A stretch of 42,609 nt of DNA. Source: Bacteroidota bacterium. Its GTDB lineage: Bacteria; Bacteroidota; Bacteroidia; AKYH767-A; OLB10. The stretch lies in assembly GCA_025352785.1 (NCBI GenBank), contig JANXSD010000072.1, positions 1 through 42,609 on the forward strand, in the 5' to 3' direction. The notes under the pieces were generated by a model. That model saw only the letters and a list, made by a program, of their open reading frames with translations. It did no database searches and was not told the DNA's origin. A program made the position numbers and the translations under genes. Positions 32,155-35,628 of this stretch are shown here, in pieces. Each line of letters begins with the position of its first letter. Within the stretch, counting starts at the first letter, position 1.

Positions 32155-33843
32155 ATGCAAGCTCCTAAAACAAATACATTTGATGCAATTGTTGTTGGCT
32201 CAGGAATTTCTGGTGGCTGGGCTGCAAAAGAATTATGTGAGAATGGCTTAAAAACTTTAGTTCTTGAGCGAGGGCGAAATGTCGAACACGTAAAGGATTA
32301 TCATACTGCTTTCAAAAACCCTTGGGACTTTACACATCGCCTCAATAACACTCAAAAGGATCGTGAAGATTGTCCAGTACAAAGTCAAGTTTTTGATGAA
32401 GGTAACAAGCATTTTTTTGTGAACGATAAAGAGCATCCCTATATCCAGGAAAATCCTTTTAACTGGATTCGTGGTTATCAAGTGGGAGGTCGTTCTTTAA
32501 CTTGGGGCCGGCAATGTTATCGTTTAAGTGATCTCGATTTTGAAGCAAATTTAAAAGATGGAATAGCGGTAGATTGGCCAATCCGATACAACGATATCGC
32601 ACCATGGTATTCGTATGTTGAAAAATATGTAGGTATTAGTGGTCGTAACGAAGGACTTTCTCAATTGCCGGATGGTGAATTTTTACCGCACATCGAATTT
32701 AATTGTATTGAAGATTTTTTTGCAGAGAACATTAAAAAAAGTTATCAGGATCGATTAGTAACACCTAGCCGTATGGCAAATCTTACCGAAGCTAAGGATG
32801 GTCGTGGACCTTGTCAATATAGAAATTTATGCTCAAGAGGTTGCCCATTTTCTGCGTATTTCAGTAGCAACGGTGTTACACTTCCAGCAGCAATGAACAC
32901 CGGGAATTTAACACTTGTTCCTAATGCAATTGTTGTGGAAGTGATGTATGATAAAGAGAAAAAAAGAGCTACAGGTGTGCGTGTGATGGATGCTATCACA
33001 AAAGAAGTTACAGTGTATTATAGTAAAATTATTTTCTTGAATGCTTCTACCATTGCAACTGCTTCTATTTTATTAAATTCAATTAGTGAAGCTTTTCCAA
33101 ATGGATTAGGGAATTCTAGTGGACAAATTGGTCATAATTTGATGGATCATAATACGGGTGCTGGTGCATCAGGAACGTATGAAGGTTTTGATGATAAATA
33201 TTATTTTGGAAGATCACCGGGTTCGATTCATATTCCTCGGTTTAGAAATGTGAATGTGAAAACACAACAGAAAGATTTTATTCGTGGTTATGGTGTTCAA
33301 GGAAAAGGAGAACGATTAAGTTGGAACGATATGTATGCTCGAACCGATGGCGTTGGAAGTAACTTTAAAGATAAGCTTACGCAACCTGGTCCTTGGGAAA
33401 TTTGGTTAGGAGGTTGGGGCGAAACATTGCCGTATTTCGAAAATAAAATTGTACTCGATAAAACTAAAAAAGATCAATGGGGATTGCCATTGGTGAGTAT
33501 ATCTTTCGAATATCAAGACAATGAAAAAGCAATGCGAAAAGATATCACCGCAAGTTGTAAAGAAATGTTAGAAAAATCAGGATTCACCAATATAAAACCA
33601 TTTGATTATCCCAAACCTGCTGGTTCTGCTGTACATGAAATGGGAACAGCTCGAATGGGTCGGGATGCAAAAACTTCGGTTCTTAATGGTAATAATCAAA
33701 TGCATGATGTGCCAAATGTTTTTATTACCGATGGAAGCTGCATGACCTCATCTGCTACGCAAAATCCTTCACTTACGTACATGGCATTAACAGCTCGCGC
33801 TTGTGCATTCGCTGTAGATGCCTTGACGAAAGGGGATGTTTGA
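32155..33843 (+). CDS. GMC-family FAD oxidoreductase (sugar/alcohol dehydrogenase large subunit)
   Basis: This is a 562-residue flavoprotein without a signal peptide. The FAD-binding start is AIVVGSGISGGWAAKEL (11-27), and a second FAD contact is GGRSLTWGRQCYR (111-123). A cysteine cluster CQYRNLCSRGC (220-230; spacing C-x5-C-x3-C) resembles the region that holds an iron-sulfur cluster in FAD-glucose dehydrogenase large subunits; that it binds a cluster here is inference. The catalytic end has HEMGTARMG and a final NPSLTYMALTARACAFAVD, the GMC_oxred_C pattern with its histidine and asparagine. It would oxidise a sugar, sugar acid or alcohol and pass electrons to the adjacent cytochrome. The substrate is unknown. 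Confidence 0.92.
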   Translation: MQAPKTNTFDAIVVGSGISGGWAAKELCENGLKTLVLERGRNVEHVKDYHTAFKNPWDFTHRLNNTQKDREDCPVQSQVFDEGNKHFFVNDKEHPYIQENPFNWIRGYQVGGRSLTWGRQCYRLSDLDFEANLKDGIAVDWPIRYNDIAPWYSYVEKYVGISGRNEGLSQLPDGEFLPHIEFNCIEDFFAENIKKSYQDRLVTPSRMANLTEAKDGRGPCQYRNLCSRGCPFSAYFSSNGVTLPAAMNTGNLTLVPNAIVVEVMYDKEKKRATGVRVMDAITKEVTVYYSKIIFLNASTIATASILLNSISEAFPNGLGNSSGQIGHNLMDHNTGAGASGTYEGFDDKYYFGRSPGSIHIPRFRNVNVKTQQKDFIRGYGVQGKGERLSWNDMYARTDGVGSNFKDKLTQPGPWEIWLGGWGETLPYFENKIVLDKTKKDQWGLPLVSISFEYQDNEKAMRKDITASCKEMLEKSGFTNIKPFDYPKPAGSAVHEMGTARMGRDAKTSVLNGNNQMHDVPNVFITDGSCMTSSATQNPSLTYMALTARACAFAVDALTKGDV

Positions 33844-33851
33844 AAAAAAAT

Positions 33852-33888
33852 AATTTAAAATTACGTTTCGATAGCTATCGAGACGTAA
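33852..33888 (+). repeat. REP-like palindromic element after the GMC gene
   Basis: Positions 33861-33888 are a 28-base palindrome centred on AGCT (TTACGT...ACGTAA arms, one G-T position). It has the same CGATAGCTATCG core as the copies at 34193 and 34313. AATTTAAAATTACG (33852-33865) links it to the GMC stop codon 8 bases away. It can also act as a hairpin at the 3' end of the cytochrome-GMC transcript. Confidence 0.7.
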
Positions 33889-33965
33889 TATCATTTTTAT
33901 ATTACCGAATTTCAATTAGCTCATTGGCATACTGGCAAATTAGAACATTAATTTTTCACATAGCT

Positions 33966-33988
33966 GTCTTTAGATTGCAACTAAAGAC
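33966..33988 (+). repeat. Stem-loop upstream of the transposase relic
   Basis: GTCTTTAG (33966-33973) and CTAAAGAC (33981-33988) pair perfectly around ATTGCAA. It lies 20 bases before the relic's ATG. RAYT genes are usually flanked by such hairpins, which their enzyme recognises. Its sequence differs from the CCGATAGCTATCGG family. Confidence 0.5.
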
Positions 33989-34003
33989 GTTCCTATAACT
34001 TTG
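33975..34003 (+). promoter_or_regulatory. Consensus promoter before the transposase relic
   Basis: TTG (33975-33977) and TAACTTTG (33996-34003), an exact TAnnTTTG, are 18 bases apart. The relic's ATG follows at 34008. The TTG lies within the loop of the stem-loop 33966-33988. Confidence 0.4.
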
Positions 34004-34007
34004 TAGG

Positions 34008-34105
34008 ATGAATAATGGAGACGGCAAAATCAGAAATAAAGAAGGAGCACACTTCATCAGGTTTGACTATTAAGATGTGTAGATGTGTTTTCGAGGAAAG
34101 AATAT
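34008..34105 (+). pseudogene. 5' remnant of a REP-associated tyrosine transposase (RAYT, IS200-like)
   Basis: From ATG 34008 the frame reads MNNGDGKIRNKEGAHFIRFDY, then stops at 34071. In another frame, 34076-34105 reads CVDVFSRKEY. Joined by one missing base, these give 'KIRNKEGAHFI-F...(W/C)VDVFSRKEY', the characteristic N-terminus of Bacteroidota RAYTs (HFITFxxxxWVDVFxRxxY, the strand pair before the HUH motif). One tryptophan codon has become TGT. The HUH and tyrosine parts are absent: after KEY the frame no longer resembles the family. The piece is too short for a functional protein. Recognition rests on remembered family patterns, not on a search. Confidence 0.6.
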
Positions 34106-34190
34106 TGTCCTGAGTTGCAAACGCAGGACAGCAGAGCCAATGCCCCCCAATGGAAAAGTTACGAATTACGTTTTTCTTTTTCGTAATTTT

Positions 34191-34230
34191 TATTCCGATA
34201 GCTATCGGAACGTAATTCTTAATTTATTTT
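34191..34230 (+). repeat. REP-like palindromic element, copy 3
   Basis: TTCCGATAGCTATCGGAA (34193-34210) is a perfect 18-base palindrome followed by CGTAATTCTTAATTTATT. It is nearly identical to 34313-34330 and lies 85 bases after the transposase relic. Confidence 0.75.
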
Positions 34231-34303
34231 AAATACCTTCCTAACCCCTCCCAAGGAAGTTTGATTTAAGCGGAAAAATATTTTCAGATATATATTTATT
34301 TTT

Positions 34304-34353
34304 CAATTCGTATTCCGATAGCTATCGGAACGTAATTTTTAATTTTTAATTTA
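34304..34353 (-). repeat. REP-like palindromic element, copy 4, at the preA 3' end
   Basis: This element contains CAATTCGTA, the palindrome TTCCGATAGCTATCGGAA (34313-34330), then CGTAATTTTTAATTTTTAAT. It ends 6 bases before the preA stop codon (34360-34362) and matches 54-110 in layout. Confidence 0.75.
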
Positions 34354-34359
34354 TTTAAG

Positions 34360-35628
34360 TCAATGGTCATTCAATGGTAATCCTCTCTTTTGAAATTCTT
34401 TCCAATTTAAATATTCATCGCCTTTTCGGTGTTCTTCCATCGTAATACAATCACTCACCGGACATACAATTTTGCAGAGGTTACATCCTACACATTCCTC
34501 TTCTTTGATGGTGTATTTATTGTAAGGATTTCCCTTTTCAATATTGATAGATTGATGCGATGTATCTTCACAAGCGATATAACATAGTCCGCAATGAATA
34601 CATTTATCTTGATCAATATTTGCAATGATATGATAATTAATATCCAGTTCTTCCCACTTAATCATTTTAGGAACTGAAAGGCCAACAAAGTCTTCGATAT
34701 TTTTATAACCTTTTTCGTCCATCCAGTTATTCATACCATCACATAAATCACGAATGATTCTGAATCCATAACGCATGGCAGCAGTACAAACCTGAACATT
34801 GCTCGCACCAAGCAACATGAATTCAACAGCATCTTTCCATGACGTGATGCCACCGATGCCTGAGATAGGAACTTTATTTGTTAACTCATCTTGTGACAAC
34901 GTAGTAAGAAATTTTAATGCGATCGGCTTAACCGCTGGTCCGCAATAACCACCAAAAACAGAGTGCCCTGCAACATTTGGATTCGGTACTAATGTATCCA
35001 AATCAATTCCTGTTACTGATTGGATTGTATTAATTAATGATAAACCATTTGATCCTGCTTTTAATACAGAACGTGCAGCAGGAACAACAGAATGAACATT
35101 CGGAGTAAGCTTAGTAATGACAGGAATTTGTGCAACTTCCATCACCCATTCCACAACCATCTTCGCAATCTCAGGATCTTGACCTACCGAAGCACCCATG
35201 CCACGTTCCACCATCCCATGTGGACAACCAAAATTTAATTCTAAACCATGCGCTCCTGTATCTTGCACTTTTTTTACTAGTTCATGCCAACTGTTGCGAT
35301 CGTTATCGGCCATCAATGATACTACCATTGCACGATCAGGAAATTCTTTTAATACTTCCTTTATCTCTATCAAATTAATATCCAATGGACGATCCGAAAT
35401 CAATTCGATATTGTTGAATCCCATCACACGCTGACCATTGTATTCAACAGCAGAATAACGAGAAGAAACATTTTTCACTTGTGTGCCTAATGTCTTCCAC
35501 ACAACACCACCCCATCCAGCTTCGAAGGCACGTAAGACATTTATTTTTTTATCGGTAGGAGGAGCAGAGGCAAGCCAAAAAGGATTGGGAGATTTTATGC
35601 CAAGAAAATTTGATTGTAGATTCGCCAT
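34360..35628 (-). CDS. preA: NAD-dependent dihydropyrimidine dehydrogenase, catalytic subunit PreA
   Basis: This is a 422-residue FMN and iron-sulfur protein that reduces uracil and thymine to their dihydro forms. The N-terminal ~310 residues are a dihydroorotate-dehydrogenase-like barrel. The flexible loop 'NFGCPHGMVERGMGASVGQDPE' carries the cysteine that acts as proton donor in dihydropyrimidine dehydrogenases. 'KLTPNV', 'ISGIGGI' and 'LLGASNVQVCTAAM' bind FMN and phosphate. The C-terminal ferredoxin domain has two [4Fe-4S] motifs, CIHCGLCYIAC and CVGCNLCKIVCPVSDC. The gene is 26 bases downstream of preT, its electron-input partner, and is last in the pyrimidine operon. A palindromic element follows its stop codon. 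Confidence 0.95.
   Translation of the reverse strand: MANLQSNFLGIKSPNPFWLASAPPTDKKINVLRAFEAGWGGVVWKTLGTQVKNVSSRYSAVEYNGQRVMGFNNIELISDRPLDINLIEIKEVLKEFPDRAMVVSLMADNDRNSWHELVKKVQDTGAHGLELNFGCPHGMVERGMGASVGQDPEIAKMVVEWVMEVAQIPVITKLTPNVHSVVPAARSVLKAGSNGLSLINTIQSVTGIDLDTLVPNPNVAGHSVFGGYCGPAVKPIALKFLTTLSQDELTNKVPISGIGGITSWKDAVEFMLLGASNVQVCTAAMRYGFRIIRDLCDGMNNWMDEKGYKNIEDFVGLSVPKMIKWEELDINYHIIANIDQDKCIHCGLCYIACEDTSHQSINIEKGNPYNKYTIKEEECVGCNLCKIVCPVSDCITMEEHRKGDEYLNWKEFQKRGLPLNDH

Follow-up and report, generated by a model that had tools for sequence, protein, structure and literature searches.

The window, i.e. the whole stretch of 42,609 nucleotides that was analysed, belongs to a Bacteroidota genome assembled to 3.46 Mb in 197 contigs (G000; C and L numbers below denote contigs of this genome and compared loci, respectively). 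Between convergent genes for a GMC oxidoreductase and a dihydroorotate/dihydropyrimidine dehydrogenase-like protein it holds an element that begins and ends with a REP hairpin, the two being inverted with their GCT feet outward, and that contains a promoter-like box and the 5' end of a gene for a REP-associated tyrosine transposase, or RAYT. Three palindromes of another repeat family lie in the same gap (Table 1). An Rfam search of the window gave no match.

Table 1. Features in and around the gap, in window positions.
Feature	Positions	Strand	Description
GMC oxidoreductase gene	32155..33843	+	convergent with the gene on the other side of the gap
Palindrome ATTACGTTTCGATAGCTATCGAGACGTAAT	33860..33889		16 bases past the GMC gene stop; separate repeat family, outside the element
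Whole miniature element (170 bp)	33963..34132	+	REP to REP; end-to-end copies on C115
Left REP hairpin	33963..33988	-	minus strand reads AGTTGCAATCTAAAGACAGC; foot GCT 33963-33965, stem 33966-33973/33981-33988, loop with TTGCA; also bounds the intact RAYT and other miniature copies
Promoter-like TATAACTTTG	33994..34003	+	box of the RAYT gene; conserved in the intact RAYT locus and other miniatures
RAYT gene 5' remnant, codons 1-33	34008..34105	+	tblastn and DNA identity to the intact RAYT locus
Deletion junction	34105..34106		codon 33 (TAT) directly onto TGTCC of the right REP; multiple alignment with C115 and C94 copies and intact RAYT
Right REP hairpin GTCCTGAGTTGCAAACGCAGGAC	34107..34132	+	hairpin 34107-34129, outer foot AGC 34130-34132
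Palindrome TTCCGATAGCTATCGGAA	34193..34210		separate repeat family
Palindrome TTCCGATAGCTATCGGAA	34313..34330		separate repeat family
Dihydroorotate/dihydropyrimidine dehydrogenase-like gene	34360..35628	-	convergent with the GMC gene

When the intact RAYT of the genome was compared with the window by tblastn, two linked segments in different reading frames were obtained (E 7e-5 for the window alone). The first, 34008-34064, corresponds to RAYT residues 1-19 with 74% identity (MNNGDGKIRNKEGAHFIRF), and the second, 34067-34105, to residues 21-33 (VDVFSRKEY). At the DNA level, 146 bp (33959-34104) are 84% identical to the intact RAYT locus on C94 (E 1.2e-37). The remnant carries frameshifts and substitutions and is without coding capacity.

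The left REP hairpin (33966-33988) has a DNA folding energy of -7.4 kcal/mol (z -3.4), matched by 0 of 200 shuffled sequences, and the right hairpin one of -8.4 kcal/mol (z -3.5). The latter is the closing end of the element and stands directly against codon 33. The two REPs differ in the basal stem, and therefore no single long hairpin of the REPIN kind is formed; the 174-nt unit folds into separate hairpins (z -1.6). The box TATAACTTTG is presumably a match to the TAnnTTTG box of Bacteroidota. In both the RAYT promoter (C94:62240-62276) and the window (33970-34003) some 19 bases separate the left REP loop (TTTGCAA) from the TAnnTTTG-like box that follows. At this distance an overlap of the hairpin with the -33 element is possible, which may allow self-regulation.

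An earlier note, made from the sequence of the window, had described a 98-base RAYT-like stretch in two frames with a promoter and a stem-loop in front, set among three REP-like palindromes, and these observations were borne out: the stretch is RAYT-derived, the stem-loop and the promoter-like box are present, and so are the palindromes. The note did not include the right-hand REP hairpin, the shared deletion junction or the intact parent gene, and regarded the locus as a degraded former source or landing site. Degraded it is; instead of a source, it is better read as one copy of a miniature derivative that has lost its interior.

The parent RAYT and its REP hairpins

Only one intact gene of this RAYT type is found in the genome (G000:C94:61675-62226). 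Its product of 184 amino acids scores 103.2 bits against the NCBIfam model REP_Tyr_transpos NF047646 (cut-off 80) and 37 bits against Pfam Y1_Tnp (cut-off 23), and carries the motifs NHIH, WQ, YIHNNP and YSSA with a HUH-Y distance of 82. REP hairpins lacking GT[AG]G flank the gene on both sides and have copies elsewhere in the genome. None of the other Y1_Tnp matches of the genome is close to this RAYT at E 1e-10, and by eye the remaining Y1_Tnp proteins look like ordinary IS200-type transposases. A sequence search against solved structures gave no match at E 0.1.

In Quentin et al. 2018 (PMC6006769), which cites the Bertels groups, TnpA_REP subclass 2.6 corresponds to RAYT group 5 and is characterized by NH[LIV]H, WQ, YIH[QN]NP and an SS tail, a median length of 179 and a median HUH-Y distance of 82. 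Its Bacteroidetes genes are described there as flanked by hairpins that are atypical in lacking GT[AG]G and that recur elsewhere in the genome. The C94 parent is like this subclass in motifs, length, HUH-Y distance, Bacteroidota host, atypical hairpins and their dispersed copies. Its sequence fits RAYT group 5, and the protein is predicted to cleave its cognate REP.

The C94 gene stands between two inverted hairpins, a left one of sequence AGCTGTCTTTAGTTTGCAACTAAAGAC and a right one of sequence GTCCTGAGTTGCAAACTCAGGACAGC, with the GCT foot outward. The predicted cognate REP of this RAYT is the hairpin with a AGTTGCAAACT apex and a GCT foot, and not TTCCGATAGCTATCGGAA, the family that the earlier note had thought to be spread by a RAYT of this type; the REP assignment at the window locus is thereby corrected. 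In this genome, a search with the REP pattern (up to 2 mismatches) found 31 sites, against 2 with the reversed control; about 29 related REP sites are spread over 9 contigs. The REPs are thus dispersed in the presence of their cognate RAYT, as REPINs are, though their number is low compared with classical REPINs and their foot is GCT instead of GTAG or GTGG.

In relatives, the RAYT gene is enclosed by a pair of inverted repeats at 59 of 103 loci, compared with 2-4 when upstream and downstream sides were mismatched and with 24 for direct repeats. Many of the relatives' RAYT hairpins retain a AGTTNNNAACT or AGTCNNNGACT apex (128 hairpins, against 2 for the control apex GAT..ATC), and their lower six pairs vary, a covariation that is descriptive only and no independent proof of pairing since the hairpins had been preselected for it.

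Immediately beyond the left GCT foot, most elements have CATA or CCAAA (C184, which carries the window, C115 twice, C94, C33, C131 and C61), and CCAAA is likewise present in L144, a locus of a different Chitinophagaceae genome; a target preference is possible. Downstream of the RAYT in L140, L141, L144, L146 and L150, a half-REP followed by a G run recurs 30-60 bases beyond the right hairpin (e.g. CTAAGGACAGCTGGGGG and CGGATAGCGGGG), and is possibly the true 3' terminus.

Miniature copies and their shared junction

Two end-to-end copies of the miniature are found at G000:C115:11944-12121 (C115a, 83%) and G000:C115:12360-12539 (C115b, 80%), together with a partial copy whose right end is broken (C94:62287-62435) and a partial copy of the right half (C94:61198-61245). 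All miniature copies share the junction AAARAATAYTGTCC, at which codon 33 is followed by the base of the right REP (with 3 extra bases in C115b), whereas the intact parent reads AAAGAGTACAGAGATATT within the gene and GGAATGTCC at the right end. Outside the REP feet, the flanks of the window copy have no homology to those of the other copies except for tracts of CGATAGCTATCG-type palindromes. Divergence is greatest in the window copy, which has 84% identity to the RAYT and 76-82% to the other miniatures. Given the shared junction and the unrelated flanks, one deletion followed by copying explains the copies better than repeated decay.

Besides the miniatures, the genome contains 99-bp tandem units that consist of the last RAYT codons and the right REP (C94:61245-61660 and C115:12260-12390), gene-less REP doublets of about 70 bp (C33, C131, C61 and C163), and 24-bp repeats at C33. 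The sizes thus grade from the full RAYT element through the gene-fragment miniature to the REP doublet, or REPIN. As the miniatures still carry part of the gene, the series would run by deletion and not by growth. With about 10 loci, against hundreds for classical REPs, the copy number is low, and since several copies are clustered on C94 and C115, local tandem duplication explains part of it. The tandem arrays suggest that slippage or recombination contributed as well.

A DNA search for this miniature in relatives gave matches in 0 of 99, and neither a transposition event nor an empty site or an excision was observed. Derivatives of their own were found in a survey of relatives, in which 109 RAYT loci were taken with flanks of 1.5-2 kb and which covered the best-matching loci and their gene neighbourhoods and hence gives no unbiased rate. 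Partial copies contain the 5' end of the gene in L132, L147, L152, L174 and L181, and its 3' end in L136, L150, L152, L208 and L217. Beside the RAYT in L136, L152 and L217 both ends are joined across an internal deletion, with a gene fragment included. Segetibacter aerophilus has a 264-bp derivative in two copies beside its RAYT and a diverged copy (73%) on another contig. The deletion junctions of the relatives differ from that of the window, so these are independent events. Tandem units were found in many of the relatives' RAYT loci.

In L120, L190 and L209 a second, nearly identical (96-99%) RAYT copy lies close by, which suggests that duplication does take place among RAYT elements of group 5.

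Origin of the element and its relation to REPINs

The reading that we favour, with a probability of about 0.78, is that 33963-34132 is the fossil copy of a non-autonomous, MITE- or REPIN-like derivative whose parent is a RAYT element of group 5 (subclass 2.6). This parent consists of the RAYT gene between its two inverted REP hairpins with the GCT feet facing out, and one internal deletion would have joined RAYT codon 33 directly to the right REP at its base. The unit, shortened but with both ends retained, would then have been copied to several places, most likely in trans by the single intact RAYT acting as a HUH nuclease on single-stranded REP-bounded DNA. In such a process the RAYT would recognise the two GCT-footed hairpins and move or copy the single strand between them, irrespective of whether it holds the gene or a mere remnant. 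Further deletions may have led to the REP doublets of about 70 bp, and the window copy would afterwards have decayed by point mutations and indels.

MITEs of IS200/IS605-type elements are internally deleted, non-coding derivatives that preserve the ends of the parent and are presumed to be moved in trans, and PATEs in Haloquadratum are reportedly MITE-type derivatives of elements of this type. The window element is likewise a derivative of a HUH element that retains both parent ends, has lost the interior and is without coding capacity, and the same deletion derivative occurs at several unrelated sites (C184, C115 twice and C94); movement in trans is here too a presumption. The parent, on the other hand, is a RAYT and not an IS200 transposase.

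The high divergence and the frameshifts of the window copy would also be expected of a plain pseudogene, i.e. a full RAYT eroded in place, in which the sequence from codon 33 to the right REP was lost by a deletion private to this locus. This is improbable, given that copies at other loci have the same junction and that the gene-fragment miniatures stop exactly at the REP feet. A spread of the copies without a transposase, through recombination of REP hairpins with one another, be it homologous or by slippage, or through local tandem duplication, would account for the 99-bp arrays at C94, the 24-bp repeats at C33, the duplicated copies on C115 and the tandem units of many relatives. It would not readily account for a window copy on another contig with unrelated flanks, for single REP doublets dispersed over further contigs, or for the dispersed, diverged copy in Segetibacter, and we consider it unlikely as the explanation of the whole. 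A retention of the leader and codons 1-33 for a function, either as a promoter/antisense unit or as a short peptide regulating the RAYT, might be read from the promoter-like box and REP conserved in all copies and from the open frame of 58 amino acids in C115a. Since the window copy is frameshifted, C115b has an indel, the copies diverge throughout and other genomes retain 3' ends instead, such a function is very improbable.

Hardly credible is a spread of the TTCCGATAGCTATCGGAA palindromes by the RAYT, with this locus as source or landing site, as the earlier note proposed. Three copies surround the element, and 3 of the about 10 REP loci have CGATAGCTATCG within 1.5 kb where rough models with random placement predict 0.15-0.43, a weak co-location that may come from REP loci and CGATAGCTATCG sites sharing the same permissive gaps. 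In contrast, a count around RAYT loci of relatives, which the note had itself named as a check, gave 0 copies of the CGATAGCTATCG core in 428 kb around 109 loci, and the presence of CGATAGCTATCG is independent of RAYT in 148 relative genomes (24 of 54 RAYT-bearing and 32 of 94 RAYT-less ones, Fisher p 0.22; mean copies 3.3 and 3.2, respectively). The TTCCGATAGCTATCGGAA palindrome furthermore has no GCT foot and differs from the hairpin that brackets the RAYTs. On the same counts, TTCCGATAGCTATCGGAA was ruled out as the REP of this RAYT.

The parent RAYT and the concept of a REP doublet are already known. REPINs were proposed by Bertels and Rainey 2011 (PMC3116915) to descend from REPs flanking an ancestral IS200-like element. 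The window element is like a REPIN in being a short, dispersed, inverted REP doublet with its cognate RAYT present, and differs in the absence of a GTAG/GTGG foot, the low copy number and the RAYT gene sequence in its spacer. The last of these features would represent the intermediate stage that is missing from the 2011 proposal (PMC3116915). For subclass 2.6, flanking hairpins and their copies are described by Quentin et al. 2018, and no gene-fragment deletion derivatives were seen in the part of that paper at hand (PMC6006769); nor were REP-bounded RAYT miniatures with a gene fragment found in the portions of the RAYT and REPIN literature at hand. The mechanism proposed here is modelled on cleavage by E. 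coli TnpA_REP and on the IS200/IS605 pathway (PMC6006769, PMC8266576).

RAYTs are usually seen as domesticated genes that are immobile and present in single copy, and according to a 2021 study there is no evidence that RAYT genes are mobile and the mechanism of dissemination is unknown (PMC8266576). We would give even odds to the wider idea that the domestication of group 5 RAYTs in Bacteroidota is incomplete and that they behave like IS elements, giving off miniatures with internal deletions time and again, with REPINs as the end stage and with the window copy and its siblings as an intermediate in the birth of REPINs in which RAYT sequence is still inside. The origin of REPINs and the spread of REPs are open questions, for which an intact RAYT, miniatures and gene-less doublets in one genome provide a concrete deletion series; the recurring shortened version suggests a route by which a full-length element may give rise to short, scattered REP repeats. 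Since such derivatives recur in other Bacteroidota, among them the cultured Segetibacter and Pedobacter, laboratory tests of the idea are feasible.

The CGATAGCTATCG palindromes

The CGATAGCTATCG palindromes are a family separate from the RAYT REP. Exact CGATAGCTATCG occurs in the window at 33869, 34196 and 34316, with 0.01 occurrences expected by chance, and two of these sites have the full TTCCGATAGCTATCGGAA. The whole genome contains 20 exact 12-mers. Relatives without a RAYT have up to 58 copies; 31-58 copies are found in G037, G010, G140, G135 and G126 and none in certain other relatives, unrelated to the presence of a RAYT. A literature search with GATAGCTATC returned no work on bacterial repeats, judged by titles and the openings of abstracts.

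Among 27 sites, 6 lie between convergent, 3 between divergent and 11 between co-directional genes, 3 are inside ORFs and the rest are at contig ends, a mixed gene context in which a role of the palindromes as terminators is no more than possible. The core is constant, and the arms, of up to about 30 bases each, are site-specific and self-complementary, as in the CCGATAGCTATCGG palindromes at L008:1500 and at L010:1500 and 2144, i.e. on C23 and C115 of this genome, and at 33860-33889 in the window. This combination suggests local extension of the palindrome (e.g. by snap-back copying) and not the copying of one parental repeat. Some of the CCGATAGCTATCGG palindromes are loopless and about 50-60 bases long.
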